A stretch of DNA of 64,000 nucleotides, taken from the NCBI GenBank assembly GCA_022843745.1, contig JALHNB010000008.1, positions 24,008 through 88,007 of the forward strand. The letters run 5' to 3'. The notes under the pieces were generated by a model. The model did no database searches, was not told where the DNA came from, and saw nothing but the letters and a program-made list of their open reading frames with translations. The number at the start of each line of letters is the position of its first letter. The first letter of the stretch is position 1. This DNA comes from Anaerolineae bacterium (lineage in GTDB: Bacteria; Chloroflexota; Anaerolineae; Aggregatilineales; Phototrophicaceae). Of this stretch, positions 48,565 to 64,000 are shown in pieces. Position numbers and translations under genes: made by a program.

Positions 48565-49791
48565 CTACTCATACCGGAGCGCTTCAATCGGGTTCAGCCT
48601 GGCTGCCCGCTGCGCCGGATAAATTCCAAAGAAAATGCCAACACTAGCCGAGATAATCGTCGCCAGAATCACGCTGGAAAGCTCGACGCGGATCGGTAAA
48701 TCCGCGACCAGTGCGGCGATCAACGCCACCAGCCCGGCAGCAATCAAAACGCCAATCGCGCCGCCCACCAATGACAACGCCATCGCTTCGATCAGAAATT
48801 GAATCACGATGTCGCGATTCTGCGCACCAACTGCTTTGCGCAAGCCGATTTCGCGCGTTCGTTCTGTGACCGTCACCAGCATGATGTTCATCACGCCAAT
48901 GCCGCCGACCAGCAGCGAAATCCCGGCGACAACGCCCAAAAATATGGTAAACAGGCCAATGATTCCGGTTAAAGTGTCGATAATCGTACCCTGGCTGATG
49001 ATCAGAAAATTATTCTCGTCGCCGATCCTCACTTCGCGCACACGGCGCAGGGAACGAGCGATTTGTTCGACGGCAGCGTCCACTGTTTCGCTGCTGCGTC
49101 CCTGCATCAGGATAAAGGAAACTACGTAATCTCCGTTGAGCATACGCTGACCACCCAAGCGCGTTTGAGCGGTAGTGATCGGCGTGAGAACCACTTCATC
49201 CGCATCCGCACCGCCTATGCCCGTTCCACCTTCGTCGAGTACGCCAATAACCTGAAAGCGCACCGCGCCGATACGAATATTGCGACCAATCGGCGATGCG
49301 CCATCAAAGAGTCGATTCACGATTTCCTGACCCACGACAGCCACACGCGCACGGGTATCCACTTCCTGTTCATTGAAGAAACGGCCATTCACGACCTGAC
49401 GACTCTGAATAACAGGATAATTGGAAGACACACCCTGAACTTGCAGTGACATGGTTTTGCCTTCGTAAACAATGACCTGGTTTACGTTAAACTGCGCCAT
49501 GACCTGAGACACATCCGGCACATTCAGCGAATCCGACAAAGCCTCGACCTCTTTAGTCGTAAAAAAGTCTATTCTGTCGTCTTCATTGGGTATGGGAAGC
49601 GCAAAAAGCAGATTCGAGCCGATACTGCTGAACTGGTTAGTGATATAGGCGGATACGCCCTGGCCCGCCGATATGAGCAAAATCACCGCCGCCACGCCAA
49701 TCGTAATGCCAAGCATCGTCAGCGCCGCGCGAAGTTTGTTCATTTGCAAGCCAACCAGAGCGACTCGAATATTTTCGATAATCGTTGACAT
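48565..49791 (-). CDS. MacB-like ABC transporter permease 2
   Basis: An ABC3/FtsX-type permease, 408 residues, with the usual MacB fold: one membrane helix near the start (LTMLGITIGVAAVILLISAG), a large periplasmic MacB_PCD domain (about residues 45-265) and three helices at the end. The signature GGIGVMNIMLVTVTERTREI precedes RKAVGA, and the C-terminal GIYPAQRAARLNPIEALRYE is diagnostic. The start is two bases after the sister permease stops. The second copy (49794) is clearly homologous, so the pair probably makes a heterodimer. Confidence 0.93.
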   Translation of the reverse strand: MSTIIENIRVALVGLQMNKLRAALTMLGITIGVAAVILLISAGQGVSAYITNQFSSIGSNLLFALPIPNEDDRIDFFTTKEVEALSDSLNVPDVSQVMAQFNVNQVIVYEGKTMSLQVQGVSSNYPVIQSRQVVNGRFFNEQEVDTRARVAVVGQEIVNRLFDGASPIGRNIRIGAVRFQVIGVLDEGGTGIGGADADEVVLTPITTAQTRLGGQRMLNGDYVVSFILMQGRSSETVDAAVEQIARSLRRVREVRIGDENNFLIISQGTIIDTLTGIIGLFTIFLGVVAGISLLVGGIGVMNIMLVTVTERTREIGLRKAVGAQNRDIVIQFLIEAMALSLVGGAIGVLIAAGLVALIAALVADLPIRVELSSVILATIISASVGIFFGIYPAQRAARLNPIEALRYE

Positions 49792-49793
49792 GC

Positions 49794-51026
49794 TTATTCA
49801 AACCTCAAAGCTTCAATTGGGCGCATACGCGCGGCACGGTTAGCCGGGTACAGGCCGAAGAAAACGCCGACGAAACTGCTGATGCCCGTCGCCAGAAGTA
49901 CCGAATCCAGTGTGAGCGAGAGGTCGAGATCGGGGACCAGCGCCCCACCGATCAGCGAAATCAGCCAACCAAGCACGATCCCTAACGCCCCACCGATCAG
50001 CGATAACAGGATACTTTCGATCAAAAATTGGCTGAGGATGTCCAGGCCACGCGCACCGACTGCCTTGCGCAGCCCGATTTCGCGGGTACGCTCGGTCACG
50101 GAAACCAGCATGATATTCATGATGCCGATGCCGCCCACGAGCAGCGAAATGCCGGATACACCCGCCAGAAAAAGCGTGAGGATGCCTGTGACCTGGGTGA
50201 TGCTGCTCAGCAGATCGCCCTGATTACTGACTCTGAAATCTTCGTCTCCGCTGTAAATGATGTCATGTGCGCCTGCGAGATAGACCTCAATCGCCGCCAT
50301 CGACATTTCAATCGCATCTTTTGACTCGACCTGCACCTGCATCTGCGAGACTTTATAAGCGCCACCACGCACACGAGCGTTATCCAAACGGCTCTGCGCG
50401 GTACTGATCGGCACAAAAGCTGCCGCGTTCTGGTCAGCACCCGCGCCGCCGGAACGATTTTCCATCACGCCGATAACCGTAAAAATGCGCCCATTGATTT
50501 GCAGCGACAAATTAATCGGGTTGAAATTTGGATCGCCGTAGAGGTCTTCAACGGTGCTTTCGCCCAGAACGACGACTCGCGCCGCATCGTTGATGTCCTG
50601 CTGGCTGATAAAACGTCCGCCGTCATTCCGGGGCCGCCATTCGTTAACCTCTACATAATTCGCCGTAACGCCATTCAGCGTGAGCGATACACTTTCTGTG
50701 CCTGCCAGCAGCGTCCCGGAGACGTTATACTGCGTCGCCACCCGCTGGATACCCGGTAGTCGCGCAATCGCGATGGCTTCCTTGTCAGTCAGGGGCTGAA
50801 TGACGGTGCGCGTACCGCTGCTTGGCCTCGTTGAAGAAACCGTGAGCGTATTTGCCCCCAGGCTTGTAAACTGCCCCGATACATAATTTTCCACGCCACG
50901 TCCCAGGCTGGTCAGGCCGACAACTGCCCCCACGCCAATGAGGATACCTAAAGTCGTGAGGATGGCACGCAGGCGGTTAATCATGAGGCTGTTAATAGCA
51001 ATACGAAAGCTCTCAATCAGGTTCAT
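49794..51026 (-). CDS. MacB-like ABC transporter permease 1
   Basis: The sister permease, 410 residues, same layout: N-terminal helix (LTTLGILIGVGAVVGLTSLG), MacB_PCD-type outer domain, three C-terminal helices with GGIGIMNIMLVSVTERTREI and the ending GLYPANRAARMRPIEALRFE. It is two bases from the ATPase gene. Typical MacB fuses ATPase and permease; here, as in LolCDE-like or many Gram-positive systems, they are separate chains. Confidence 0.93.
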   Translation of the reverse strand: MNLIESFRIAINSLMINRLRAILTTLGILIGVGAVVGLTSLGRGVENYVSGQFTSLGANTLTVSSTRPSSGTRTVIQPLTDKEAIAIARLPGIQRVATQYNVSGTLLAGTESVSLTLNGVTANYVEVNEWRPRNDGGRFISQQDINDAARVVVLGESTVEDLYGDPNFNPINLSLQINGRIFTVIGVMENRSGGAGADQNAAAFVPISTAQSRLDNARVRGGAYKVSQMQVQVESKDAIEMSMAAIEVYLAGAHDIIYSGDEDFRVSNQGDLLSSITQVTGILTLFLAGVSGISLLVGGIGIMNIMLVSVTERTREIGLRKAVGARGLDILSQFLIESILLSLIGGALGIVLGWLISLIGGALVPDLDLSLTLDSVLLATGISSFVGVFFGLYPANRAARMRPIEALRFE

Positions 51027-51028
51027 GA

Positions 51029-51868
51029 TTAGGTATATTCTGCTTTCGCGCCGCCATAGTAGGCTTCCTTGAACACGCCTTCCAGTTCTTCAGCCTCGGA
51101 TGGACGTTCAGTCTCGCCTGCTACCAGCGGTGCAGCCACATGACGATCCGCGACGATTTTGCCATCGCGCAGCATGACGACGCGCTTGGTATGACGTGCG
51201 ATCCAGGGATCATGGGTAACGAATACAATCGTAATGCCCTGGTCGCGGTTTAACTGCTGGAAAATCTGCATCACTTCTGTACCGCTGCGGCTATCCAGGT
51301 TGCCGGTTGGCTCATCAGCGAGAATCATGGCAGGTTCATTCACCAGCGCCCGCGCAATTGCCACACGCTGCTGCTGTCCGCCGGATAATTCGCTGGGGAG
51401 ATGATCGAGGCGCTGCCCCAGACCAACCGACTCCAATGCGGCCTTTGCTTTTTGCGATCTGCCACTTACGCCACCATAGACCAGCGGCAGTTCCACCTGA
51501 CGAAGCGCAGTCGTGCGCCGCAGCAGGTTAAAGCTCTGAAAAACGAAGCCTATTTTTTTGTTACGAACGCCTGCCAGAGTCGTTTCACCCAGTTTGCTCA
51601 CATCCACGCCATCCAGAAAATACTCACCGGAGGTCGGCTGATCGAGTGCACCAAGGATATTCATGAGAGTCGATTTACCGGAGCCGGACGGCCCCATGAT
51701 CGAGACAAATTCACCTTTAAAAATTTGCAGCGATATGCCCTTCAGCACTTGCAGTGAAAACTCACCCATCTCATAGGTTCGGGTAATATCGCGGATGTCG
51801 ATGACGGCCTTCGGCGCTTCGGGTTCTGCAACGGATTCTGTGGTTTTACGATTGAACCATTTGAACAT
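51029..51868 (-). CDS. ABC transporter ATP-binding protein (MacB/LolD type)
   Basis: ATPase of 279 residues. Walker A is GPSGSGKS (59-66), signature LSGGQQQRVAIARAL, Walker B MILADEPTGNLDS, and the switch His in VTHDPWIARH. The MacB/LolD family is also marked by MNILGALDQPTSGEYFLDG. The first 20 residues and the last 40 (ending YYGGAKAEYT) are extra to the core domain. It sits between the adaptor and permease genes with two-base gaps and should energise the pair of MacB-like permeases. Confidence 0.95.
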   Translation of the reverse strand: MFKWFNRKTTESVAEPEAPKAVIDIRDITRTYEMGEFSLQVLKGISLQIFKGEFVSIMGPSGSGKSTLMNILGALDQPTSGEYFLDGVDVSKLGETTLAGVRNKKIGFVFQSFNLLRRTTALRQVELPLVYGGVSGRSQKAKAALESVGLGQRLDHLPSELSGGQQQRVAIARALVNEPAMILADEPTGNLDSRSGTEVMQIFQQLNRDQGITIVFVTHDPWIARHTKRVVMLRDGKIVADRHVAAPLVAGETERPSEAEELEGVFKEAYYGGAKAEYT

Positions 51869-51870
51869 GA

Positions 51871-53415
51871 TTAGTTTCCTCCTGCGCCGCTACGAGGTGG
51901 CCCACCGAATCCCCCACCAGATGACTCCGTCTGAGTGGGCAGCAGGACGATAATCTGTCCAGCCTCCAGACCACTCAAAATCTGGCTTTCCTCTGAATTA
52001 CGTGCGCCAATCTGCACAGCCGCCTCGCGATACTGCCCATCTTCTTCAATCACGACGAATGTGCGCTGATTTTCACCATCGACCCGTATAAAACGGTTCG
52101 GAACCAAAATCACGTCATCCAGATCACTGATATTCAATCGGGCTGTCGCGCTCATGACAGGCCGTAGCGGAGCAGATGTAGAATCCAATGTAACGGTCAC
52201 GGTATAGGTGATAAGCTGCCCCTGAATGGTGGAGGCATCCGCAACTTTTGTCACAACACCCGTGATGTCGGCATCCGGCAGCGCATCAACGCTCAGGGAG
52301 GCAGTCTGACCCACTTGCACATTCACAATATCTGTCTCATCAATCGCCAGATCAATCGTATAACTGCCGTCGTCAATCAGCGTAATCACGCCACCAGAGG
52401 GCGGGACTTCACCAACCGTCAGGTCTTCGTCCGCGACCAGTCCAGAGATGGGCGCTATAAGCTGGGTTTTGTCCAACTGCTCCTGCGCTTTCTGCAAATC
52501 CAGACGGGCTGTTTCCAGGTCAATCTCCGAACGTCGCAATTCCGCCGCGCTTGCCGGATTTGTCAGATTTTCCAGACTGGCTTGCGCTTGAACAAGCGAG
52601 GCGTTCGCGCTGGAAAGTGAGCTGGCGTTCGGCCCTTCATTCAGGGTCGCGTTGTAGGATTCGCTTTGAATCTCAACGTTAAATTCCTGCGATGCGACCT
52701 GCGAATTCGCTTGAATTTCACCTGCCATCGCGCCGCCGTTACCATCGCGAAATTCGGGATTTGGCGCAAGCTGCATATCGCGGTTGAGCTGGGACTGCCA
52801 CAATTGATTGCGAGCAATTTCGGCATTCAGCCGTGCGATTTCTTCATCGTTTGAGTCCGGCCCGGTCAGCGAAGCGGAGTAGAGCGATGCTTCCGCGACA
52901 TTCACTTGTGCCTGCGCGACAGCGATATCTACATCGCGCGGTGGCTGGATCAGGTTGTTGTAATTGGCCTCCGCTTGTGCCAGGGCAATTTCAGCATCCC
53001 GCACGGTTGCCTCAGCACTGGTCGAGTCTAGCCGCGCCAATACATCGCCTGCTTCGACGCGCTGGCCTTCGGTCACAAAAACTTCGGCGACCAGTGCGGA
53101 AGAAGCAAATGTCAACTCCAACTGCTGCGCGGGTGAAAGAGCGCCCGCTGCGTTGAGTGTGATATTCAGGCTGCCAGTTTGTACTGTAGTTCGATCTGTT
53201 GGCTGCTGCCCTTGTAAATTAACCGTGTTCGCGCTTACTGGTAGCTGTGGCGGCGGCATCATGGTAAATGTAAGCGCCAGAATGCCCACAAGCACGACCA
53301 AACGGAGTGACCAGCGCAGCCAGGCACGCTTTTTGACAAGGCGGCCAATCACGAACCAGAGAATTCCCACGACAATTAAACTACCACAAATTGGTACGAG
53401 CATTTGAGTCATCAT
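51871..53415 (-). CDS. HlyD/RND-type periplasmic adaptor 2
   Basis: A 514-residue membrane-fusion adaptor. One or two membrane segments at the start (about 8-24 and 34-51), then a lipoyl-like half (VFVTEGQRVEAGDVLARLD), a long helical hairpin (about 135-320; AEASL...SLTGP and ASLVQAQASLENLTNPASAA), the second lipoyl half (ISGLVADEDLTVGEV) and beta-barrel and membrane-proximal domains. The tail is Gly-rich (GGGFGGPPRSGAGGN). It starts next to the stop of adaptor 1, and the two are only distant relatives of each other. It probably bridges the permease complex to the cell envelope. Confidence 0.9.
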   Translation of the reverse strand: MMTQMLVPICGSLIVVGILWFVIGRLVKKRAWLRWSLRLVVLVGILALTFTMMPPPQLPVSANTVNLQGQQPTDRTTVQTGSLNITLNAAGALSPAQQLELTFASSALVAEVFVTEGQRVEAGDVLARLDSTSAEATVRDAEIALAQAEANYNNLIQPPRDVDIAVAQAQVNVAEASLYSASLTGPDSNDEEIARLNAEIARNQLWQSQLNRDMQLAPNPEFRDGNGGAMAGEIQANSQVASQEFNVEIQSESYNATLNEGPNASSLSSANASLVQAQASLENLTNPASAAELRRSEIDLETARLDLQKAQEQLDKTQLIAPISGLVADEDLTVGEVPPSGGVITLIDDGSYTIDLAIDETDIVNVQVGQTASLSVDALPDADITGVVTKVADASTIQGQLITYTVTVTLDSTSAPLRPVMSATARLNISDLDDVILVPNRFIRVDGENQRTFVVIEEDGQYREAAVQIGARNSEESQILSGLEAGQIIVLLPTQTESSGGGFGGPPRSGAGGN

Positions 53416-54804
53416 CTATTGTCCTCCGGGGAAGCCTGTGTTGATACTCGCCTGCTCGACCACAACCACGTCACCTTCACGCAGCCCCGATACCACTTCG
53501 CTGTATTCATCACCCTGCAAACCTAACTGCACTTCGACTTCCTTTTCCTGGTCATCTGTACCTAATACATCGACAAACGCACTTCCATCCGCTTCAATGC
53601 GCAGAAAATTATTCGGCAGAATGAGCGTATCGTCTCGTTGTTCGAGGACAATAAAAGCCTCACCTGTCATCCCCAAGCGGACGCGCGGATCAACATCATC
53701 CAGCGCAAAGCGGGTGTAGTAACTCACGACACCATTGACCGCAACGCCCATGATTTCAATCTGCTTTACGGAGGCATTTAGTTGAACATCCGGCAGCGCG
53801 TCCAAACGCACAAAGGCCGCCATGCCAACATCAATTTGATTGAGGTCTACCTCGTCTACATCGGCTGTTAATCCCAGCGGCGCGACATCGCTGACTTGAA
53901 TTGCGGATACACCTGGGGCGACAGACTGACCAATCTCAATATTGACCGCCGTGACGATGCCCTCCATCTGCGCCACCAACATGGTTCGATTCAAGGCTGT
54001 TTCGGCATCCCGCAGCCGCGCTTCGGCTTTTTGCACCGTAATTTGGGCATTGGTAATCTCCGCCGTTGATGGCCCTGCCAGCAGTTGTTCGAGTTCACGC
54101 TCACGCAGCGCGATTCTTGCTCCCGCCTCTGCCAGACTGCCACTGTTTCCGCTGCCCAGGCTTTCCAGTTGTAAACGCGCGATTTCAACATTAAAGGACG
54201 CTTCGCCGATTTGGGCATCCAGCAGGGTGTATTGCTCTTCTTCGAGGCCGCCGGATACTTGACGCTGACGCTGCTTCTCTTCCAGGCTGTGCTGTGCCTG
54301 CTCGTAACGAAGCTGTGCCTGCTGAATATCCGCGTCACTGACCGTGTTGGCCGCGCTGTTATAGGCACTCTGCGCACTTGCCAGATTCGCTTCAGCCACA
54401 CGAATGTCATTTTCGTCCACTGGCCCCAGCAAATCGGTCAGCGCATTATTCGCTCGCTCCAATGCCAGCTGCGCCTGCTCATAATCTATACGCTGTGTCT
54501 CGTCGGCTAACCGCGCTACTACATCCCCCACCAGGACATAATCGCCTGTTTCGACCAATACTTCCGCGACCTGCCCCGAAGCTTGAAAACTCAAGTTGAC
54601 GACTTCATCTGCCTGGATTGACCCCAATGCCGACACTGTGCGCTGGATTTCACCGCGCTGTATGGTATATCGTTCCAGATTTTGCAGCCGGGTCTGCTCA
54701 TCCATCTGCGCACGCAGAGTCTGGCTTGCAGCCAGGAACGATGATGCCACCGGAACGATGATGACTAAAATTAACATGACGATCAGAGAACGAATTACCG
54801 ACAT
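53416..54804 (-). CDS. HlyD/RND-type periplasmic adaptor 1
   Basis: A 462-residue adaptor, first gene of the efflux operon. An uncleaved or signal-like helix (SLIVMLILVIIVPVASSFLA) is followed by the first lipoyl half (VLVETGDYVLVGDVVARLAD), a hairpin coiled coil (about 100-270), the second lipoyl half (MEGIVTAVNIEIGQSVAPGV) and a beta barrel with RVRLGMTGEAFIVLEQ. The ending is REGDVVVVEQASINTGFPGGQ-like (final residues TGFPGGQ). It is 60 bases downstream of three direct repeats that may be the site of the operon's own response regulator. Confidence 0.9.
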   Translation of the reverse strand: MSVIRSLIVMLILVIIVPVASSFLAASQTLRAQMDEQTRLQNLERYTIQRGEIQRTVSALGSIQADEVVNLSFQASGQVAEVLVETGDYVLVGDVVARLADETQRIDYEQAQLALERANNALTDLLGPVDENDIRVAEANLASAQSAYNSAANTVSDADIQQAQLRYEQAQHSLEEKQRQRQVSGGLEEEQYTLLDAQIGEASFNVEIARLQLESLGSGNSGSLAEAGARIALRERELEQLLAGPSTAEITNAQITVQKAEARLRDAETALNRTMLVAQMEGIVTAVNIEIGQSVAPGVSAIQVSDVAPLGLTADVDEVDLNQIDVGMAAFVRLDALPDVQLNASVKQIEIMGVAVNGVVSYYTRFALDDVDPRVRLGMTGEAFIVLEQRDDTLILPNNFLRIEADGSAFVDVLGTDDQEKEVEVQLGLQGDEYSEVVSGLREGDVVVVEQASINTGFPGGQ

Positions 54805-55026: not shown

Positions 55027-56934
55027 CTATAGTCTGTGTAAAAGGTCTACGGCGCAGCGGAAACCAATTGTCCCACAGCGATCCAGCCCAGAATACATGA
55101 GCAAAAATTTAGCGCCAAATTGCGGCGACTGATGACCGCCATCGGCATACCAATACGAGCCTGTGACCTGGTAATCCATACCGCCTTTCAGAATGCAGAA
55201 GCGCGTCCGCCCATCGCTGCGTTCGCTTTCCGTCCAGTTCCAGACGCGGTTTGCGCCATAACCGGCTTGCCCTCGTTCCTGCGCCACCTGCCATTCTTCT
55301 TCAGTTGGCAGGCGTTTACCAGCCCACGCAGCGTAGGCCCGCGCATCGTCCAGATCAATATACACCACAGGAAAATCTTCTTTGCCTGCTGGTGGAGCGC
55401 CGTTGACCCAATGTTTGAGGAAATTTTCGGCGTGTTTCGGCTGATAGCCGCTGGCCTGCAAGAACGCCTGAAACTGTCGATTCGTGACTTCGCTGCGGTC
55501 AATCGCATAGGGCGAGAGCGTTACGGCGCGTTGAATGGTCGTATTTTGGTGCAGATTCGGTATCCACAAATCCACAGGCGGCACACTCTCATAAAAGCCG
55601 CACTCTCGAATCCTGTAAACCACGTCGAGAGTCAGTTCGCCACCGTCTACAGCGGCCATATCCGGAGGCACTTGTTGATAAGGTGCGGTGGCTGTCACAG
55701 GCTTGAGTTCGATGGTCAACTCTGGAAAAGTGGTATCCTGCACCTGTTCCACGATTGCACCACGCTGCTTGGTCAGAAAATTCTGAAATACTTCATCCGG
55801 CGCACTCACAACCGCAAACGCCGCCACGCCACGCGCTTCGATTCGCCCCCCAGCTTTTTGCGCCCGTTCACCTGTGAGCAGATTATAGATTTTGCCCTGT
55901 ACGGACAAACATTCGCCTTCGATAGGCTGCTCCGTTCGGTTAACCAGCGTCCAGAGCGTGATTCCAGCACCCTCCCACTGATTCGCGTAAACACCTTCGA
56001 TCAGCGTCGGCACGAGTGGAGTCCATTTTCCGGTGGCAAACAGCTTCGAAAATTGGCGCTGAACGGGCAGGATCGCCCGCAAAATCGCGCGGTCACGAGC
56101 ATTCCAACCCACCCATGACGCAAACACATTCTCCCATACCAGCATTCCCACGCCGTTCATCCACGAGGTTTGCAGTTCCGACGTGTGATCGCGATCCCAG
56201 CGCCGAATCATGTGCAGCATATGGCGTTGTTCGAACCATTTGTTGCGCAGAACCCCCGGCACATCGCTGTCCTTAAACGCCTGCGCCCACGACATATGGT
56301 GATCGTTGACATTCGCCAGTGGCAGATCAATCTCGCCTTCCAGCACCACGCCCTCGCGTATCGCATCGAGCCGTGCCCGCATTTCTGGCGCACCTCTGTC
56401 CATTGTGTCGAGAAAAATGCCGTCCGCCTCAATCGCGCCGACGAACTCCGCCAGCATCTCAATATCCGATCTGCCCTCGCGGTGGGTGTCGGTATCCCAG
56501 GGGTTATAGCACAGGAAAACCGTGATGCCCCGCTTGTGAGCAGCGCGACTCAATTCCCGCAAAGCGTCCAGACCACCCGGCATATCGCGGTAAAAATCAT
56601 ACTGGTTGCGGTCATCGAAACCGATGCGCGGGTAGGCCTGCCACAGCACAAAGGCATCATAGCCGCCGAAATCGCGCTCACCCTGATCCAGGAAAGCGTC
56701 CATTGTGTAGCGTCCATTGCGATAATCATAAAAAAGCTCATCGCACATCATGATAAAGCAGCAGGAGAAGCAGCTTTGCGCCCACTCAAAATCCGGGCGT
56801 TGGTACAGGCTGTCATCATAATTCAGTTCAGCGCGTTGGCTGTCTCGCCATTCGTGCAAAAACTTCACCCACGCTTCACGCTCGGAAGCGTCTACCGGGG
56901 CAGGAATAATCGGTGCAATCGGATAAGTTGTCAT
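55027..56934 (-). CDS. Glycoside hydrolase-like TIM barrel fused to a SUMF1/FGE-like domain
   Basis: A 635-residue protein begun at ATG 56934 (MTTYPIAPI), with AAGGA 13 bases ahead; an in-frame TTG at 56955 is a second choice. There is no signal peptide, so it is cytoplasmic. Residues 1-330 look like a TIM-barrel hydrolase: RGITVFLCYNPWD, EADGIFLDTMDRG (Asp as possible nucleophile) and GVVLEGEI. A beta domain follows. The last 180 residues form a SUMF1 domain (SPYAIDRSEVTNRQFQAFL, GKRLPTEEEWQ, CGTIGFRCAV). The two active cysteines of true formylglycine-generating enzymes are not in their usual place, so this domain more likely binds than oxidises. The pairing is unusual; it lies at the end of the sugar locus. 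Confidence 0.72.
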   Translation of the reverse strand: MTTYPIAPIIPAPVDASEREAWVKFLHEWRDSQRAELNYDDSLYQRPDFEWAQSCFSCCFIMMCDELFYDYRNGRYTMDAFLDQGERDFGGYDAFVLWQAYPRIGFDDRNQYDFYRDMPGGLDALRELSRAAHKRGITVFLCYNPWDTDTHREGRSDIEMLAEFVGAIEADGIFLDTMDRGAPEMRARLDAIREGVVLEGEIDLPLANVNDHHMSWAQAFKDSDVPGVLRNKWFEQRHMLHMIRRWDRDHTSELQTSWMNGVGMLVWENVFASWVGWNARDRAILRAILPVQRQFSKLFATGKWTPLVPTLIEGVYANQWEGAGITLWTLVNRTEQPIEGECLSVQGKIYNLLTGERAQKAGGRIEARGVAAFAVVSAPDEVFQNFLTKQRGAIVEQVQDTTFPELTIELKPVTATAPYQQVPPDMAAVDGGELTLDVVYRIRECGFYESVPPVDLWIPNLHQNTTIQRAVTLSPYAIDRSEVTNRQFQAFLQASGYQPKHAENFLKHWVNGAPPAGKEDFPVVYIDLDDARAYAAWAGKRLPTEEEWQVAQERGQAGYGANRVWNWTESERSDGRTRFCILKGGMDYQVTGSYWYADGGHQSPQFGAKFLLMYSGLDRCGTIGFRCAVDLLHRL

Positions 56935-57003
56935 TTTAAAAATGTATTCCTTCAACTTGAGATGTAAATTTTATGGGGGTCAAATTCATAGGCTTATCCG
57001 CCA

Positions 57004-57128: not shown

Positions 57129-58442
57129 TTACTTCAACGCTGCCAGTTTCTCCGCCTTCGCGATCATCGCGTCCGCAATCGCGCGGATTTCCTGGCGCTC
57201 AACGTCCGTTGCCTGATCGACCATCGCTTTGACCAATGCCTCACAACGGTCACGAATGGCGTTTGGATCGGGGTTCTCCGTCTTGCGTCGCTGGAGCAGC
57301 TCTGTCAGCCAGCGATTGCCGTAGGAAGCATGAATCGTTTCGTCTGCCCAATCAAAATCCATGTCGTGCTGGCTGACGTTATCGGCGTATTCTTTAAAAC
57401 TTTTGATACGCTCCGGCTTGCGCTTGATATTTTTCGTCTCAAAATAGAACAGCATTCCCAGGCGATAAATCGGGTCTTGCCCAAACGCCGCCTGATAAAT
57501 ATACGTCCCCAGCGGCAGTTCGCTCGGCTCAAAACCCCACTGCCGCAGCCGTTCATAGCCCATGATGCAGTGACGCGCTTCATCATATGTCCAACGCGCC
57601 GCATCCAGCACGAATTCCCAATCAAGTTCATCGGCGAAGGCATTGAGGAGCGCCCCGCCTGTTTCCACTGCCCACACCTCATTCAGATGGCTGACCGCGC
57701 TCCGCAGTTGCAGACGCAGGCCGTCTCCGTAAGGAAACGTCGGGTCAATCACATCCGGCCAGTAGTAGCACACTTCGCGGAAACGATGATCACGCGCAGG
57801 GATTTGCGCCAGCGCGAACGGCACTCTACCGGGAATTTCAATCGGTGCGTCGGGTTGATTTTCGACAGGGTCAAGGCCGATCCCGCCAATCGCATCCAGC
57901 AGCGTTTGAAGTTCTTCTACCCAGGCATCCGCCGCTGCTTTCGCTTCGGGCATATAAGTCTGCATCAGCGGCAGCATGTCACTCATCAGGCGAATCTGCT
58001 CGTCCTTTTCCTGGATCGCCAGCCGAATAAACCTGATGCTCGGCCCGTCGCCAATGCCATCCGCCAGCGCCAGATAATCCTGATAGGCTTTGCGCAGCGC
58101 GGGCTTAAACACTTCCAGCAGCGACCTGTACATCGCCAGCGCGTTGGGCGCGTTGCGGGCTTCGCTGACCAGATTCATCAGCGCACTTTCGCTGCCGATC
58201 TCCATCATGCGGTTGGGATAGCGCAGTTCAAACACGCGTGTCCGCATATCGTCCGCCGTTTTCGCGTCCTGCCAGATAAGCTGCGGCAGCTTCGTTTTCA
58301 CTTCGAGAGGGCCGATTGCCGCCAGCCATCCGGCCTGCGTGATAATCAGCGATTGCTCCACGAAAAAAAAGCGCTTCAGAATCACAGCCGTATCGTGGCG
58401 CATCAGTTTGGCACGACGATGTTGTCCCGGTAAATATGCCAA
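57129..58442 (-). CDS. DUF455-like ferritin-fold diiron protein
   Basis: A ferritin-like protein of about 437 residues. I start it at TTG 58442, directly after the DeoC-type gene stop, because GGAGGG lies eight bases upstream; the longer frame upstream overlaps that gene. Near the C-terminus a four-helix bundle carries two ExxH pairs and extra Glu: HLNEVWAVE (about 252), TYDEARH (286-290), LFYFETK (333-337) and WADETIH (366-370), the classic carboxylate-bridged diiron pattern. The N-terminal half is helical and may be a decayed second bundle. The family resemblance is to DUF455 proteins, whose function is unknown. It is transcribed with an aldolase and a sugar kinase. Confidence 0.72.
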   Translation of the reverse strand: MAYLPGQHRRAKLMRHDTAVILKRFFFVEQSLIITQAGWLAAIGPLEVKTKLPQLIWQDAKTADDMRTRVFELRYPNRMMEIGSESALMNLVSEARNAPNALAMYRSLLEVFKPALRKAYQDYLALADGIGDGPSIRFIRLAIQEKDEQIRLMSDMLPLMQTYMPEAKAAADAWVEELQTLLDAIGGIGLDPVENQPDAPIEIPGRVPFALAQIPARDHRFREVCYYWPDVIDPTFPYGDGLRLQLRSAVSHLNEVWAVETGGALLNAFADELDWEFVLDAARWTYDEARHCIMGYERLRQWGFEPSELPLGTYIYQAAFGQDPIYRLGMLFYFETKNIKRKPERIKSFKEYADNVSQHDMDFDWADETIHASYGNRWLTELLQRRKTENPDPNAIRDRCEALVKAMVDQATDVERQEIRAIADAMIAKAEKLAALK

Positions 58443-58443
58443 T

Positions 58444-59145
58444 CTAGTATCCCTCCGCGTCGCCTTCAATGCCCTCGATAATCTGAGGGGCGCTGCTGGT
58501 GCCAAGCAGTTCTGCACCTGCCTCTAACAATGCAATCGACTTCTCATAACTATTGATTTTCCCCGATGCCTTGACCTTGCCCTTCGCGCTGATTGCCGCG
58601 CGGATCAGGCGAATGTCTTCCGGCGTCGCGGCGATGGCAGCCGGGCCAAAACCGCTGGAATTTTTGATCCAGGGGATACCTGCCTGGTCAAGAAGCTGCG
58701 CGGCGTGGCGTTTTTCATCATCGCTTTTCAGAAATCCGAACTCCAGCATAGCCTTAATCGGCCTGCCTTCTGCGGCCTTAAAAATCTGGTGCGCTTCGTC
58801 TGCGAATTCGTCGTACATGCCGGAGAGAAAAAAGCCCATATTCGGCTCATAATCAATCTCGTCAGCTCCCAGCGCCAGACATTCGCGAATCAGATTGATT
58901 TTCGCGTATATGGTCTCATGTCCAACCCCCAGGCTGATACACGTCGCCACCTTAATATCCGTCCCACGCAGCCGTTCGCGTGCCAACCTCACCCAGCACA
59001 TGGGGATCATCGCCGCGTTAAAGCCATACTGAATGCAGCTTTCCAGGTGCGCCTCAATCATATCGCGGGTCGCGTTCGGGCTGACCTGCGTAAATTGGAT
59101 ACGCTTGGCAAGCGCTGATTTTGTCAATGTTCGTGCGTTAATCAA
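58444..59145 (-). CDS. DeoC-type deoxyribose-phosphate aldolase family protein
   Basis: Class I aldolase of the DeoC family, 233 residues from TTG 59145, which has GAGGGG six bases upstream; an ATG at 59178 would overlap the kinase gene by 23 bases with a weaker site. All three E. coli DeoC active residues have counterparts: the Asp in GADEIDYEPNMG, the Schiff-base Lys in PWIKNSSGFGP and the second Lys in GKVKASGKINSYE. The family splits 2-deoxyribose 5-phosphate into glyceraldehyde 3-phosphate and acetaldehyde. Similarity is moderate (IKNSSG for the usual VKTSTG), so another aldol substrate is possible. Confidence 0.83.
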   Translation of the reverse strand: MINARTLTKSALAKRIQFTQVSPNATRDMIEAHLESCIQYGFNAAMIPMCWVRLARERLRGTDIKVATCISLGVGHETIYAKINLIRECLALGADEIDYEPNMGFFLSGMYDEFADEAHQIFKAAEGRPIKAMLEFGFLKSDDEKRHAAQLLDQAGIPWIKNSSGFGPAAIAATPEDIRLIRAAISAKGKVKASGKINSYEKSIALLEAGAELLGTSSAPQIIEGIEGDAEGY

Positions 59146-59155
59146 ATTAAACCCC

Positions 59156-60082
59156 TCATCTGCTACTAAACAGCTCATCTACCTGCTCGCGCCGCGCCAG
59201 CGCCGGGATCACCCCCAGTTTGGAACAGGCCAGCGCCCCCGCGCAGTTTGCGAATCGAACTGCATCGAGCAAATTTTTGCCCTCTGCCAGCGCAACCGCT
59301 AAGGCGGCGTTAAAGGCGTCCCCTGCCCCGGTGGTATCGACAATCTCTCCCGGTGACACCCCAGGCACTTCCACTAGTCCAGCGTCCGCGATGACCAGCG
59401 CGCCTTTTCCGCCCTGCGTCACGATCAGATTTTTTACGCCCTGCCCCCGCAGTTGATTCGCCAGCTCAAGTGTCGGCGTGGGATCATCGGGCGACAAACC
59501 CATCAGAATGCGCAGTTCGGTTTCATTCGGCGTCAGATAGTCGACATTTTGCAGCACTGCGTTTTCGAGTTTGCTGGCTGGTGCAGGGTTCAAAATCGTG
59601 CGAACACCGTGCTTTTTGCCGAGTTCGACAGCTTTGGCAGCGGCGGCTGTCGGCAGTTCCAGCACGGTCATGACGACATCGCTGTGGGCAATCTGCGCTT
59701 CCAGCTTCTCGACAAATGCGCCGTCCATCAGCTTGTTCGCGCCCATGTCAAGGATGATGCCGTTTTCGCCCTTCTCGTTCAGGATGATGAAGCCAACACC
59801 CGTCGCCATCTGCTGCGTTTTTTGCAGATAGGTCGTATCCACACCTTCTGCCGCGTACAGATCAACGGCGATCTCGCCAAGCTTATCGTCGCCGATGATG
59901 CCCGCGAAATAGGACTGCGCACCGAGTCGCGCAGTGGCGACGGCCTGATTCGAGCCTTTGCCACCCGGCCCCATGTCAAAATCTGAGCCAAACAGCGTTT
60001 CGCCAAAAATCGGCATATGTGTGGTGCGGATGGTCATACCAACCGCGAAACTGCCAACAATCGTAATAATCGGTTTTGCCAT
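59156..60082 (-). CDS. rbsK: PfkB-family sugar kinase (ribokinase/deoxyribokinase type)
   Basis: Phosphorylates a pentose with ATP, 308 residues. Signatures are GGKGSNQAVATARLGA near the start and DTTGAGDAFNAALAVAL with the catalytic Asp near residue 255; NPAPASKLENAVLQNVDYL and PNETE are typical of ribokinase. Since the next gene is a DeoC-type aldolase, the true substrate may be deoxyribose (DeoK role), but sequence alone favours ribokinase as the closest family. It follows the GntR regulator gene by 18 bases in the same direction. Confidence 0.9.
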   Translation of the reverse strand: MAKPIITIVGSFAVGMTIRTTHMPIFGETLFGSDFDMGPGGKGSNQAVATARLGAQSYFAGIIGDDKLGEIAVDLYAAEGVDTTYLQKTQQMATGVGFIILNEKGENGIILDMGANKLMDGAFVEKLEAQIAHSDVVMTVLELPTAAAAKAVELGKKHGVRTILNPAPASKLENAVLQNVDYLTPNETELRILMGLSPDDPTPTLELANQLRGQGVKNLIVTQGGKGALVIADAGLVEVPGVSPGEIVDTTGAGDAFNAALAVALAEGKNLLDAVRFANCAGALACSKLGVIPALARREQVDELFSSR

Positions 60083-60100: not shown

Positions 60101-60895
60101 TTACCCGCCAGGGGTATATTCCTCGCTAAATGTGCGCTGCGTATGATCGATCTTTTTGTCGCGCTTAAACGTCGCCGACAGCTTGAAACGCTCACCCTTG
60201 AACCACAGATTTGAAAGCTCAATCGGCGATTCGTCGCTCAGGTAGACGATTTGCTCGGCGAACATCACAGGCCGCGATTCAGAAATGTTGAGCAGACTCG
60301 CGATCTCTGAGTCTGCGACGCGGGCCTCAAACGAGCGCCGTCCCCAGTCCAGTTCCAGACCCAGATGCTCTTCCAGCACTTCGAAAAGTCGATAGCGTGT
60401 GAAATCATAGTGTTCAATCCCCTGACAGCGCGTATAAGGGATGTAGTTTTCCAGGATCACCAGCGGCTCGCCGCCGATACTGCGCAAACGCTTCAGAAAA
60501 AATACCTCGTCGCCAGGTCGCAAGCCGAGCAGCGAGGTCACATTTTCGACTGGCTGGATAATCGACTGCTCAATAACCTGTGTTTCAAAGCCGATTCCGC
60601 GCACAATTAAGTCTTCAGAGAAAGTCACAAATCGCTCGGCAAGAGGCTGTTCCAGTATAGAAGAAGCGACAAATGTGCCACGCCCATGAATACGCGTGAA
60701 CAAACCTTCCTCGATCAGTTCCATGATCGCTTTACGCATTGTCCCTCTGCTGACACCCAACTCAATCGCCAAATCGGTCTCGGCCTTCAGCTTATAGTGT
60801 TCCGGCCACGCGCCGTGCTTAACCTGCTGGCGCAACCAATCCTTGATCTGTTGATAGATCGGCGTTGGGACTTCGCGATCTAACTCATGCGTCAT
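60101..60895 (-). CDS. GntR-family transcriptional regulator with UTRA domain
   Basis: Sugar-responsive repressor or activator, 264 residues. It starts at ATG 60895 (MTHELDREVPTPIYQQIKDW) with GAAGGG at proper spacing; a longer frame upstream is not used. The winged helix (about 12-80) has the GntR pattern KAETDLAIELGVSRGTMRKA. The UTRA ligand-binding domain (about 95-260) follows, with GDEVFFLKRLRSIGGEPLVI. It is located between the transporter genes and the kinase-aldolase genes on the same strand and most likely controls them in answer to a sugar or phosphosugar. Confidence 0.92.
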   Translation of the reverse strand: MTHELDREVPTPIYQQIKDWLRQQVKHGAWPEHYKLKAETDLAIELGVSRGTMRKAIMELIEEGLFTRIHGRGTFVASSILEQPLAERFVTFSEDLIVRGIGFETQVIEQSIIQPVENVTSLLGLRPGDEVFFLKRLRSIGGEPLVILENYIPYTRCQGIEHYDFTRYRLFEVLEEHLGLELDWGRRSFEARVADSEIASLLNISESRPVMFAEQIVYLSDESPIELSNLWFKGERFKLSATFKRDKKIDHTQRTFSEEYTPGG

Positions 60896-61011
60896 GTACA
60901 GCCCTTCGTGACAATTCCAGCCATTCTTCATCGTGATTTTTGAAGATCGAACATCGCTCTTACGATGCCTAAACCTATAACAGGGTGCTGCGCCCAGCAA
61001 ACTTTTCTACT

Positions 61012-61037
61012 CCCCTCTCCAACGCATTGGAGAGGGG
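61012..61037. repeat. CCCCTCTCC hairpin repeat
   Basis: CCCCTCTCCAA (61012-61022), loop CGCA, TTGGAGAGGGG (61027-61037), followed by CTGGGGGTGAGG. It lies between the sugar permease and the GntR gene and could attenuate transcription. It resembles a known type of interspersed repeat in several phyla, though its identity is my recollection, not a search. Confidence 0.7.
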
Positions 61038-61059
61038 CTGGGGGTGAGGTTGCTTTTAG

Positions 61060-61932
61060 TTACCCCTTCATACCCGTCAACACGATCCCCTTGACGAAAT
61101 ATTTCTGGAACAGCGTGAAGATAATCAGGATTGGTACCGTTGCCAGTGTCGCGGCGGACATCAGCGCAGGCCAGTTCGAGCCGCCTCGCCCCTGGAACAT
61201 TGCCAGTCCCACCGAAATCGTCATGTTATCGACAGAACTCAAGTACAACAGCGGCCCTAGAAAGTCATTCCAATGTCCGACGAACGTAAACATGGCAACG
61301 GTTAGCAGGACAGGTTTCGAAAGCGGCAGGAAAATCTGCCATAGGATTCGGAATGACCCTGCGCCATCCACCCGTGCGGCATCTTCCAGATCACGCGGGA
61401 TACTGAGAAAAAATTGCCGTAACAGGAAGATGTAAAACGGATTGCCGAAAAAGGTCGGCACGATCAGCGGCAGCAGTGTATCCAGCCAGCCTAATGTCCG
61501 AAAAATGATATAAACCGGGATCATAACGACCTGGAACGGCAGCATCATGGTCGCCAAAAGAACGACAAACCACACATCACGCCCCCACCATTTAAGCCGC
61601 GCGAAGCTGTAGGCCACCAGCGTACACGACGTCAATGTGCCGATTTCCGACAAAATGACGATGATGATCGTGTTCATATAAAAGCGGTCAAAGGGAATCG
61701 GCCCACCCCACAGGTTGAGATAATTCTTGACCGTAAACGGCTGCGGGATAAACTCCGGCGGGAAACGGTATGCCTGCCCCGTCTCTTTAAACGAGGTCGA
61801 TACCATCCACAGGAACGGCAACACGAACATCGCGCCCAGCAAAATGAGAATGACCACTCGCAGAATCTCTAAGTAGGGAATACGACGCGGTGGCTTTACT
61901 GTCAGATTTGTTATGTTGGTAATGGCTGCCAT
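61060..61932 (-). CDS. CUT1 sugar ABC transporter permease (MalG type)
   Basis: A carbohydrate permease of 290 residues starting at ATG 61932, with GGAGGAAG ahead and one base shared with the stop of the previous permease (TAATG). About six membrane helices are seen. The inner-membrane EAA loop reads EDAARVDGAGSFRILWQIFLPLSKP, matching in part the EAAxxDGA consensus (here EDAARVDGAG). The N-terminal helix and the KETGQAYRFPPEFIPQPFTVKN-like segment (FPPEFIPQPFT) are typical of MalG relatives. No ATPase is in the window; CUT1 systems often share one. Confidence 0.93.
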   Translation of the reverse strand: MAAITNITNLTVKPPRRIPYLEILRVVILILLGAMFVLPFLWMVSTSFKETGQAYRFPPEFIPQPFTVKNYLNLWGGPIPFDRFYMNTIIIVILSEIGTLTSCTLVAYSFARLKWWGRDVWFVVLLATMMLPFQVVMIPVYIIFRTLGWLDTLLPLIVPTFFGNPFYIFLLRQFFLSIPRDLEDAARVDGAGSFRILWQIFLPLSKPVLLTVAMFTFVGHWNDFLGPLLYLSSVDNMTISVGLAMFQGRGGSNWPALMSAATLATVPILIIFTLFQKYFVKGIVLTGMKG

Positions 61933-62882
61933 TATGCTTCCTCCGCTTCGTAGTAAACCCAACGTCCGGCCAGCTTCAACTGAATCATCGTCAGCGCCAG
62001 GACGATCAGGAACAAAACCCAGGCCATCGCCGAAGCAAGACCCATCTCAAAACCGCGAAACGCCTTTTGATACAGATACAGCACATAGAACAAGGTCGCA
62101 TTTTCCGGCCCGCCGTTGGTGAGGATATAAATCTGCGTAAAAATCTGGAACGAGCCGATAATACCGATCACCAGCGTGAAGAAAATGGTTGAACTCATCA
62201 TCGGCAGCGTGACAAATCGAAACTTATCGAGGACATTTGCGCCGTCAATTTCCGCCGCTTCATACAGATAATCGGGAATCGCCTGCAAACTCGCCAGATA
62301 AATGAGCATCGTTGAGCCGACACCCCACAGACTCATCACGATGACCGCTGGCAGCGCCCAGTATGGACTGCTTAACCAGGGTGGCCCCGTAATGTTGATT
62401 TGATCGAGTAAAAAATTAATGAGGCCAAATTCAGGGTTAAACAGCCAGCGCCACAATACGGCGACTGCTACCCCTGCCGTAACTGAAGGCAGAAAAAAGA
62501 CCGCCCGAAAAAAAAGTTTGACCGCGCCCTGCCCATTGACCAACACCGCCAGAAGCAGCGCCATCGCAAGCTGCAACGGCACGGCGAACACTGTGTACAG
62601 TAGAGTCACACGCAGGCTGTGCCAGAAAAGATTGTCTTGCAGCATTCGCTCAAAATTACGCAGGCCGACATACTTCATCGGCGTGAGCATATCCCACTGT
62701 TGAAGGCTGAGAAAAAGTGAGGCAATAAATGGCCCCAGTGTGAACACAAAAAAGCCGATCAGCCAGGGCGCGGCGAACAGATACCCCGGAAGATTTTTAC
62801 GAATCGCCTGCTGCCAGCGTGGGACTTGCGCCACTGGCTGAAGCGTTGTCGTCGTGTTGTAAGTTTGAAGACCGCTGCTCAT
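61932..62882 (-). CDS. CUT1 sugar ABC transporter permease (MalF type)
   Basis: The partner permease, 316 residues and about six helices after a cytoplasmic N-terminus (MSSGLQTYNTTTTLQPVAQV). The start of the membrane part, PGYLFAAPWLIGFFVFTLGP, is characteristic of MalF/UgpA-type permeases. The coupling loop is YEAAEIDGANVLDKFRFVTLPM, a good EAAxxDGA motif (EAAEIDGA). It should pair with the MalG-type product and the binding protein encoded upstream to import a sugar or polyol. Its gene is separated from the binding protein by a 214-base gap that carries two palindromes. Confidence 0.94.
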   Translation of the reverse strand: MSSGLQTYNTTTTLQPVAQVPRWQQAIRKNLPGYLFAAPWLIGFFVFTLGPFIASLFLSLQQWDMLTPMKYVGLRNFERMLQDNLFWHSLRVTLLYTVFAVPLQLAMALLLAVLVNGQGAVKLFFRAVFFLPSVTAGVAVAVLWRWLFNPEFGLINFLLDQINITGPPWLSSPYWALPAVIVMSLWGVGSTMLIYLASLQAIPDYLYEAAEIDGANVLDKFRFVTLPMMSSTIFFTLVIGIIGSFQIFTQIYILTNGGPENATLFYVLYLYQKAFRGFEMGLASAMAWVLFLIVLALTMIQLKLAGRWVYYEAEEA

Positions 62883-62960
62883 AAAGGCTTATATCCTGTC
62901 TAGTTTGTTTTCATCCCTGCCCGTGAACGCTGTCGAAGAATCCACAAACGGCGATATTTT

Positions 62961-62985
62961 TAGGCGCACACGGCAGTGCGCCCGG
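62961..62985. repeat. Degenerate GGCGCAC palindromic repeat
   Basis: GGCGCAC (62963-62969), ACGGCA, GTGCGCC (62976-62982), a worn copy of the GCACGGCTGTGC-core version. It is 28 bases before a perfect 28-bp member of the same family. Confidence 0.6.
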
Positions 62986-63012
62986 TGCAGATTGCCATAA
63001 AATTGAGATTTT

Positions 63013-63040
63013 GTAGGGGCGAGGCATGCCTCGCCCCTAC
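63013..63040. repeat. Perfect 28-bp palindrome, GTAGGGGCG family
   Basis: Left arm GTAGGGGCGAGGCA (63013-63026) and its exact reverse complement (63027-63040), identical to the copy at 25275-25302. It lies between the binding-protein gene and the permease genes and may lower expression of the permeases relative to the binding protein. Confidence 0.9.
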
Positions 63041-63096
63041 GACAATTACACAAAATCAATCCGCTAGCAGTTCAATCAGGGCTGCGCGAACCGGCT

Positions 63097-64000
63097 CTAG
63101 GTTACGCCGTTGTCAGCGCGCCACTGATCCAGCGCGGCGTTGACATCTGCGGCGGCCTGGGCGAGTGTTCCAGGGATATCGTCAGTGGTATTGTTGAAAA
63201 TGGCATCCAGGTGCGGGTTGAGTACAGAGTCGAAGTTCCCATCCAGAATCGGTTCGGGATGCGCCCACTGTAACGCATCACTATAGACGATATTGTGTTC
63301 CGGCGGCATCGAGTCCAGGAACGCAGGCGAGGCGTTGACCGATTCGAGCGCGGCAACTGCCATACCTGTGGCAACATTCGCTTCCTGTGGGCTTTGGGTG
63401 AGCAGGAATTTCAGGAAGTCCCAGGCAACATCGGCATTCTGTGAGCCTGAGTAAATCGAGTAGTTAAGCATGTACAGCGTGCAGGCCGGGTCACGATCCT
63501 TAACATGCGGGAACGGCACGACATCCCATTCAAAATCGGTGATCGTGCGGAAGGTATTCAGCCAGCGTCCATAGGAGAACATGGCGACTTTACCGGACAT
63601 GAAACGATCAAACCCGCCAAGTTCCTGAACAGCCGACGACGACGGAGCAACTTTATATGTCTCGCGTAAGTCGCGCAGCAGTTGGAAGGCCTGTGCTGCT
63701 TCTGGCGAATCAATGACGCAGCGCGTATCGGCGGTAATTTTCTTGATGTTGCTGTACACCTGTGCGCCATGCTGGTAGAGAAGTGTCGGGTACATCCAGT
63801 TTTCGAAATGGACACCAAATTGGCGTTCTTCTTCGTTGGTGAGCTTGGTCGCGGTTTCGATCAGGTTATCCCACGTCCAATCTTCAGATTCCCAATCCGT
63901 CGGTGGGTACGGCACACCAGCCGCGTCAAACAGATTCTTGTTGAACACAAATCCCGCTGGGGAAACTTCGAATGGCATGGACAGCATTTGCTCGTTGTAG
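63097..64000 (-). CDS. CUT1 family sugar ABC transporter substrate-binding protein, 5' end outside window
   Basis: The C-terminal 301 codons of an extracellular solute-binding protein (family 1); the frame is open to the right edge (YNEQMLSMPFEV at the border), so the signal peptide is not in view. Blocks such as VFNKNLFDAAGVPYPP, DWTWDNLIETATKLT, FMSGKVAMFSYGRW and WDFLKFLLTQSP are typical of maltose/glycerol-3-phosphate type binding proteins. The ending, DVNAALDQWRADNGVT, is complete. It is the first known gene of the transporter, upstream of two permeases, and gives the locus its substrate specificity, which cannot be told from this sequence. Confidence 0.93.
   Translation of the reverse strand, partial: YNEQMLSMPFEVSPAGFVFNKNLFDAAGVPYPPTDWESEDWTWDNLIETATKLTNEEERQFGVHFENWMYPTLLYQHGAQVYSNIKKITADTRCVIDSPEAAQAFQLLRDLRETYKVAPSSSAVQELGGFDRFMSGKVAMFSYGRWLNTFRTITDFEWDVVPFPHVKDRDPACTLYMLNYSIYSGSQNADVAWDFLKFLLTQSPQEANVATGMAVAALESVNASPAFLDSMPPEHNIVYSDALQWAHPEPILDGNFDSVLNPHLDAIFNNTTDDIPGTLAQAAADVNAALDQWRADNGVT

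Follow-up and report, generated by a model that had tools for sequence, protein, structure and literature searches.

Why should a sugar operon carry, as the last gene of its set, a gene for a putative diiron protein? The operon lies in a 64,000-nucleotide stretch of an Anaerolineae bacterium genome (assembly GCA_022843745.1, contig JALHNB010000008.1, positions 24,008 to 88,007; hereafter the window, described in its own numbering). Along the minus strand follow genes for a binding protein, two CUT1 permeases, a GntR/UTRA regulator, a PfkB kinase, a DeoC-type aldolase and a DUF455 protein. The sequence-only reading of this locus had suggested that a carboxylate-bridged diiron centre oxidises the sugar, acetaldehyde or another product with O2. 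We find that DUF455 genes of several phyla are accompanied by a ribokinase lacking residues that contact the 2-hydroxyl of ribose, and we propose that the window DUF455 protein is an O2-dependent oxygenase acting on a phosphorylated, 2-modified ribose. That DUF455 is the diiron oxygenase of some 2-modified ribose pathway, be the sugar 2-O-methylribose, 2-deoxyribose or a ribose with another 2-substituent, seems to us probable. The specific scheme that we favour, in which the operon imports and degrades 2-O-methylribose (the sugar of 2'-O-methylated RNA nucleosides) and DUF455 acts as the demethylase, is more tentative and falls somewhat short of an even chance.

Is the DUF455 protein equipped for such a reaction? 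Its gene (57129–58442, minus strand; 437 residues, TTG start) scores 48.5 bits against PF04305 (curated cut-off 34.3), the only Pfam match of the protein. Two ExxH motifs (E288xxH291 and E368xxH371) are present together with E255 and E335, all encoded within 57330–57680 (minus strand; the E255 codon begins at 57680 and the H371 codon is 57332–57330). These six presumed metal ligands (E255, E288, H291, E335, E368 and H371) are invariant in 65 aligned sequences with identities down to 23%, and E260 is nearly so. The order E, ExxH, E, ExxH, a signature of four-helix carboxylate diiron oxygenases, is that of a carboxylate-bridged diiron ligand set; the diiron centre, two ExxH motifs plus extra Glu, had been recognised from the sequence alone, and no ligand proved to be missing. 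An AlphaFold2 model built from the same alignment (predicted local distance difference test, pLDDT, 96.4; predicted template modelling score, pTM, 0.94; an earlier model from 11 sequences was poor, with pLDDT 69) consists of two helical halves. The ligands lie in residues 240–437, with E288/H291, E335 and E368/H371 on three predicted helices and E255 just ahead of a fourth, while residues 8–195 contain no invariant ExxH. This N-terminal half resembles the B chain of toluene 4-monooxygenase hydroxylase and aldehyde-deformylating oxygenase with Z about 15 (VIA-align), a value that is unspecific among helical bundles and comes from a list covering mainly residues 8–195, in which the diiron half is barely compared. 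Searching PDB sequences with the alignment of DUF455 proteins turned up no significant match (one chance match, E 0.16), and Foldseek with the model gave none at E 0.001 or better. DUF455 has the ligand set and the N-terminal-half fold match in common with four-helix diiron oxygenases such as toluene monooxygenase and aldehyde-deformylating oxygenase; it differs in that a single chain combines a presumably metal-free with a metal-bearing half and has no significant PDB sequence match. A 2-oxoglutarate enzyme was considered and rejected, as Pfam finds no PhyH (PF05721) domain in the protein. The same genome encodes a second, distant DUF455 protein of 32% identity (genome G000, contig C1, locus L053, 9430–10845), whose neighbours include no kinase or DeoC of the operon type.

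Is the gene association conserved? A survey of the class covered 396 genomes, of which 56 gave a DUF455 match at E 0.001; in 17 of these 56 the match is close (>340 bits). A scan of one genome per species yielded 54 loci with DUF455, in Chloroflexota, Bacillota, Acidobacteriota, Rhodothermales, Verrucomicrobiota, BRC1, a Woeseia fragment and one unidentified bacterium. Neighbours within 9 kb were counted in 53 loci, the window locus plus 52 of those 54, leaving aside L102 (no intact DUF455 frame) and L108 (a fragment); some of the 53 share one genome (L062 and L066). The altered ribokinase is found in 40 of these 53 loci, in Chloroflexota, Bacillota, Acidobacteriota and Rhodothermales; this total includes the L082 kinase, detected by tblastn behind a longer spurious frame. 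DeoC occurs in 12 loci, RbsD in 11, a ribose-type permease in 17, GntR in 21, a nucleoside hydrolase in 8, a nucleoside transporter in 3 and a URO-D-like protein in 6. Of the 13 kinase-less loci, ten have their end at most 3 kb downstream of the DUF455 centre, two (L055 and L107) have their start at most 1.6 kb upstream of it, and only L084 extends beyond 6 kb on both sides; the sole kinase of L061 is more than 9 kb away and differs in type from the linked ones. Gene orders include DUF455-DeoC-kinase-RbsA-RbsC-RbsB-RbsD in Paenibacillus eucommiae (L083) and kinase-DeoC-RhaT-like permease-DUF455 in a metagenome-assembled genome (MAG) of Terriglobia (L092). The control consisted of 20 loci around distant DUF455 relatives (28–32% identity): a PfkB gene occurred in only two, both keeping the Asp discussed below, and none contained DeoC, RbsD or a nucleoside hydrolase. 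Because the neighbours recur in other phyla, chance clustering of kinase, DeoC and DUF455 is excluded. Two distant DUF455 genes (L164, 7410–9882; L165, 7693–10123) are divergent beside a PfkB kinase with Ser at the place of that Asp; the kinase pairing therefore reaches beyond the DUF455 orthologues. No DUF455 match was found among 72,556 plasmid records. In five of six Bacillota loci (L063, 11330–12220; L067, L083, L086, L088), the gene adjoining DUF455 encodes a TIM-barrel protein whose Pfam match, if any, is weak.

What sugar does the kinase bind? The window kinase (59156–60082, minus strand; 308 residues, ATG start; PfkB 214 bits) scores 293.3 bits against the ribokinase model TIGR02152, just under the cut-off of 299.65; of six other linked kinases, five pass (L083, L092, L067, L044, L089) and L062 fails. 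In E. coli ribokinase, ribose is contacted by Asn14, Asp16, Gly42, Lys43, Asn46, Glu143 and Asp255 (PMC9604405), and in the pseudouridine kinase PsuK, Asn14 and Asp16 bind the 2'-OH, and Asp16, Gly41 and Asn45 the 3'-OH (PMC9247573). The window kinase has A13 and G15 at the places of Asn14 and Asp16 (E. coli numbers, assigned by motif) and keeps the other five contacts. The pattern is general: Asp16 is replaced, by Gly or Ala, in 40/40 DUF455-linked kinases and Asn14 is often gone too, while all 40 keep Gly42, Lys43, Glu143 and Asp255; Asn46 is kept by all but L062 (39/40), which has Asp there. The L102 kinase, beside the broken DUF455 frame, also lacks Asp16. In seven DUF455 genomes, 21 kinases were read: (i) 12 keep the Asp, none of them near a DUF455 match of the class survey; (ii) 8 lie beside a DUF455 gene and have Gly, Ala or Ser in its place; and (iii) one, on a short contig of G279 with RbsA, RbsD and URO-D as neighbours, has Gly. 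Since the two 2'-OH contacts are replaced and the others kept, a ribose without a free 2-OH is the simplest reading of the kinase substrate, as judged from its residues. An Asp16-less ribokinase is also encoded on a Vibrio nigripulchritudo plasmid (L181, 6983–11056), with a nucleoside hydrolase, an adenosylhomocysteinase-like protein and an adenosine deaminase.

Which substituent might replace the free 2-OH? The choice of 2-O-methyl follows from the nucleoside hydrolase neighbours, a published 2'-O-methyluridine hydrolase cluster and recurrent one-carbon genes, none of which is proof. Nucleoside hydrolases lie beside DUF455 in Bacillota, Chloroflexota and Acidobacteriota; the family of those in L063 and L064 is unspecific, occurring also in Lactiplantibacillus, Latilactobacillus, Vibrio, Mesobacillus and Hymenobacter plasmids. 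The acidobacterial hydrolases seem to have Thr or Ser at the place of Asp14, which we take to bind the 2'-OH; as the alignment has an insertion there, we place no weight on this observation. The one-carbon genes comprise a dehydrogenase in five loci (L056, L062, L089, L107, L163), best matched in L062 by the NCBIfam models for N,N-dimethyl-4-nitrosoaniline (NDMA)-dependent alcohol (287 bits), S-(hydroxymethyl)mycothiol (279 bits) and S-(hydroxymethyl)glutathione (261 bits) dehydrogenases. The URO-D protein recurs in six loci; the L066 copy is MtaA/CmuA-like (70 bits, below cut-off), and in L060 (12578–14485) a URO-D domain fused to two B12-binding domains directly follows the kinase in the DUF455 cluster. 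A homocysteine S-methyltransferase gene lies two genes after DUF455 in L057, and PhyH genes occur in five DUF455 loci, upstream of the transport genes in Caldilineaceae clusters (one copy Pfam-checked).

A different 2-substituted ribose, or one epimeric at C2 (e.g., 2-O-glycosyl ribose or arabinose), whose substituent or ring DUF455 would oxidise, is a rather unlikely alternative. The kinase tells only that the 2-OH is not gripped, and two haloarchaeal plasmids (L175, 7805–14111; L182, 5780–12277) combine the Asp16-less kinase with DeoC, RbsD, a ribose-type ATP-binding cassette (ABC) transporter and a GH88 glycoside hydrolase, not a nucleoside hydrolase, and lack DUF455; changed DeoC motifs were read there for Halomicrobium. 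In contrast, the one-carbon and nucleoside neighbours of DUF455 favour the sugar of a methylated nucleoside.

Does the aldolase point to deoxyribose instead? The operon aldolase (58444–59145, minus strand; 233 residues, TTG start) scores 142.9 bits against NCBIfam TIGR00126 (deoC), above the cut-off of 117.3, and has no Pfam match at E 0.001. Its motifs DEID, WIKNSSG and VKASGK keep what we take to be the catalytic Asp and both Lys, yet the canonical motifs are altered, with KNSSG for KTSTG and DYEPN for DMVxN. These changes are shared by the 13 linked aldolases: KNSSG replaces KTSTG in 12 (KNASS in L092) and xPN follows the catalytic Asp in all. A canonical DeoC with KTSTG and DMVMN (285 bits) is encoded elsewhere in the window genome, and a housekeeping use of deoxyribose by the operon was rejected on this ground. 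Moreover, protein and family searches found no DeoC in 9/9 genomes of the genus g139 that have the kinase and a close DUF455; the contigs match Caldilineaceae MAGs, completeness is 94–99%, one genome is a single contig, and the family search was positive in 10 of 14 control genomes. Kinase and DUF455 must therefore suffice in these genomes, and together they should yield something that central metabolism takes up directly, such as ribose 5-phosphate. The two haloarchaeal plasmids show the converse, DeoC in the absence of DUF455. DUF455 and the variant DeoC look like alternative exits from one phosphate. A KNSSG-type DeoC also adjoins a GntR regulator and a phosphotransferase system (PTS) transporter on a Lacticaseibacillus paracasei plasmid (L174, 8971–13250).

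The Salmonella route for deoxyribose runs through DeoK and a DeoC step. An analogous use of 2-deoxyribose from DNA, with a deoxyribokinase, DeoC cleavage and DUF455 in an accessory role (e.g., as a C2 hydroxylase giving ribose 5-phosphate), would accord with a sugar that also lacks the 2-OH, with an aldolase above the deoC cut-off and with the ribose-type uptake genes and RbsD in relatives. We consider it unlikely: the window genome already possesses the canonical DeoC, which scores twice as high; the nine g139 genomes do without DeoC; and the linked aldolases have altered active-site motifs in common. In addition, deoxyribose supports growth when RbsK of Salmonella, an enzyme that presumably has Asp16, is supplied on a plasmid (PMC13432705); a kinase should thus have no need to lose Asp16 to handle this sugar. 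The Salmonella pathway resembles the operon in using a PfkB-type kinase on a ribose without 2-OH and differs in that the excerpt of PMC13432705 describes no diiron protein in it.

Is DUF455 itself the oxygenase? Bradyrhizobium and Mesorhizobium plasmids (L173, 9001–14819; L172, 9001–13865) carry an Asp16-less kinase that is 57–58% identical to the window's and nested among Chloroflexota DUF455-linked kinases in the tree. There, the kinase is followed by a ketopantoate-hydroxymethyltransferase-like (PanB-like) protein, a sterol-desaturase/fatty-acid-hydroxylase-family protein, a Rieske protein and an FAD reductase (named by annotation, with Pfam run on the Bradyrhizobium set). The hydroxylase family consists of membrane diiron enzymes, and the set appears to be an alternative oxygenase system acting on that same sugar. 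The Bradyrhizobium plasmid adds a TIM-barrel protein homologous to the one beside DUF455 in Bacillota; in the four comparisons made, identity was 29–32% across some 275 residues, with E values of 2e-34 or better. The best evidence for DUF455 itself being an oxygenase is that a complete oxygenase system occupies its place here. Consistent with this, all 56 genomes of the class with a DUF455 match encode COX1, compared with 229 of the 340 without (Fisher 2e-9); by genus, the figures are 30/30 with DUF455 and 153/223 overall (5e-6). This distribution would fit an O2-dependent catalysis by DUF455.

Could the protein instead be an iron store, a metal sensor or a structural protein riding with sugar genes? 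Bacterioferritins are among its Foldseek matches (best E 0.15), and no redox partner was noticed nearby. We regard this possibility as improbable, given the close linkage with one kinase type across phyla, the O2-linked distribution and the hydroxylase-Rieske-reductase set beside a close kinase in rhizobia. Least probable is an oxidation or detoxification of the aldehyde released by DeoC in the manner of aldehyde-deformylating oxygenase, which DUF455 resembles, among many helical bundles, only in its N-terminal half: DeoC adjoins DUF455 in the window, yet it is near DUF455 in just 12 of 53 loci, and its absence from nine DUF455-bearing genomes makes it unlikely that DUF455 acts on DeoC's aldehyde. 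Of the oxidations envisaged by the sequence-only reading, that of the sugar is the one that gains from the conserved linkage, the ligand set, the confinement to COX1 genomes in the class survey and the rhizobial replacement, while that of acetaldehyde was rejected.

What, then, may be the reaction sequence? Computation establishes the gene set and its conservation, the diiron ligand set, the loss of kinase residues touching the 2-OH and the lack of DeoC in one genus with DUF455; which sugar is used, in what order the steps occur, and what reaction and product result, we infer. In the 2-O-methylribose scheme, the CUT1 genes would import 2-O-methylribose or a glycoside of it under GntR/UTRA control, and the variant ribokinase would phosphorylate O5. 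DUF455 would next hydroxylate 2-O-methylribose 5-phosphate at its methyl group at the expense of O2, and the hydroxylated phosphate would collapse into formaldehyde and ribose 5-phosphate. The variant DeoC would offer a second, O2-independent exit, cleaving the same phosphate into glyceraldehyde 3-phosphate and a C2 aldehyde. The kinase is placed before DUF455 because a DUF455-first order, which would produce free ribose, leaves no reason for the lost 2-OH contacts.

Several observations weigh against this scheme. The kinase residue pattern fits 2-deoxyribose or another 2-substituted ribose equally well, and some kinases with no DUF455 nearby have lost Asp16 as well (those of Vibrio, Halomicrobium, Halomontanus, Halarchaeum, Mesorhizobium AR07 and a Chloroflexota plasmid). 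The linked kinases fall in one clade with moderate support (0.67); the 40/40 loss of Asp16 is therefore close to a single evolutionary event. The window operon contains neither a nucleoside hydrolase nor a formaldehyde dehydrogenase, nucleoside hydrolases in the window genome are weak only (best E 3e-13), and no electron-transfer partner was noticed in DUF455 clusters. The matches of the L062 dehydrogenase and of the L066 methyltransferase-like protein are far under the curated cut-offs. None of the data explains why a variant DeoC should accompany an oxygenase. The COX1 link may stem in part from relatedness and genome size, both uncontrolled. Finally, the stretches examined around three DUF455 relatives of 42–44% identity (L050–L052) contain no kinase or DeoC; their neighbours are sugar-acid and oxidoreductase genes, including mandelate-racemase-type and Gfo/Idh-type enzymes, and the partner set has therefore drifted there.

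How does the operon compare with described systems? The sequence-only reading knew of no pathway with this gene set. This holds for DUF455, as no literature linking it to sugar use or to any pathway was found, judged by titles and abstract starts; it does not hold for the combination of kinase, DeoC and GntR, which is published beside a 2'-O-methyluridine hydrolase (PMC6278475). A distance of 15 bp separated the cloned hydrolase from a DeoC-type aldolase that is only a distant relative of E. coli DERA, ribokinase and GntR occur in related clusters, and Intrasporangium and Microbacterium clusters are named (PMC6278475). Cluster RK9 of the same study is similar in its distant DeoC-type aldolase and in the ribokinase and GntR of its related clusters, and nucleoside hydrolases are present in 8/53 DUF455 loci; it differs in that its excerpted description names no diiron protein and does not follow the fate of 2-O-methylribose, and in that the window operon lacks the hydrolase. 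PhyH-family members demethylate 2'-O-methyl nucleosides (PMC12709175): these PHYHD1/FJS demethylases depend on Fe and O2, as is proposed for DUF455, and remove the 2'-O-methyl group as formaldehyde, but they are 2-oxoglutarate dioxygenases acting on free nucleosides, not nucleotides. Similarly, a P450 system converts 6-O-methyl-D-galactose by oxidative O-demethylation into sugar and formaldehyde (PMC10033563), but employs a P450 on an unphosphorylated hexose.

The remaining genes of the window complete the picture. The sequence-only reading had placed CUT1 uptake and a GntR regulator next to the kinase, as Pfam confirms for genes at 60101–64000 (all minus strand): the GntR/UTRA regulator (60101–61000; UTRA 114 bits, GntR 49.8 bits), whose start is uncertain, an inner ATG near 60895 fitting better; two CUT1 permeases (61060–61962 and 61932–62882; BPD_transp_1 84 and 44 bits); and the sugar-binding protein (63097–64000; SBP_bac_1 64.5 bits), which is cut by the window edge and continues in L054. 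The tight spacing it described is real: the TTG of the aldolase lies 10 bases past the kinase stop and that of DUF455 1 base past the aldolase stop, preceded by GAGGGG and GGAGGG, respectively. TTG starts and strong ribosome sites had been ascribed to the kinase as well, which in fact begins with ATG behind a site that does not look strong, after an 18-base gap from the regulator gene's end (60101). Downstream of DUF455, after 173 bases, the next gene (55027–56955, minus strand) encodes a 642-residue protein in which an unassigned N-terminal part is joined to a C-terminal FGE-sulfatase domain (PF03781, 84.4 bits). Such a gene also directly follows DUF455 in the closest relative (L055) and lies at most 9 kb away in five further loci; its membership in the operon is uncertain. 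In Caldilineaceae-type genomes, relatives of the 642-residue protein have a PhyH dioxygenase and a 2-hydroxyacid dehydrogenase as neighbours. Further on, the region 48565–54804 resembles an ABC efflux operon, with two MacB-like permeases, an ATPase and two membrane-fusion-type proteins, as read from translations only.

What would the scheme mean for the family? DUF455 might represent a new class of soluble diiron sugar-phosphate O-demethylases, and the operon the missing last stage of RNA 2'-O-methylribose salvage, spread over at least four bacterial phyla with interchangeable oxygenases around one kinase, DUF455 in this case and in rhizobia a membrane hydroxylase with its Rieske protein and reductase; we advance this broader view with clear reserve, as possible and nearer to doubtful than to probable. 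If it is true, a Pfam family of unknown function would gain a chemistry, testable in named Paenibacillus, Brevibacillus, Cohnella and Mesobacillus strains (L063, L067, L083, L088). Should the substrate be some other 2-modified ribose, the coupling of a diiron oxygenase to a sugar kinase would still be unusual, and the residue change in the kinase would provide a sequence marker among genes now annotated 'ribokinase'.

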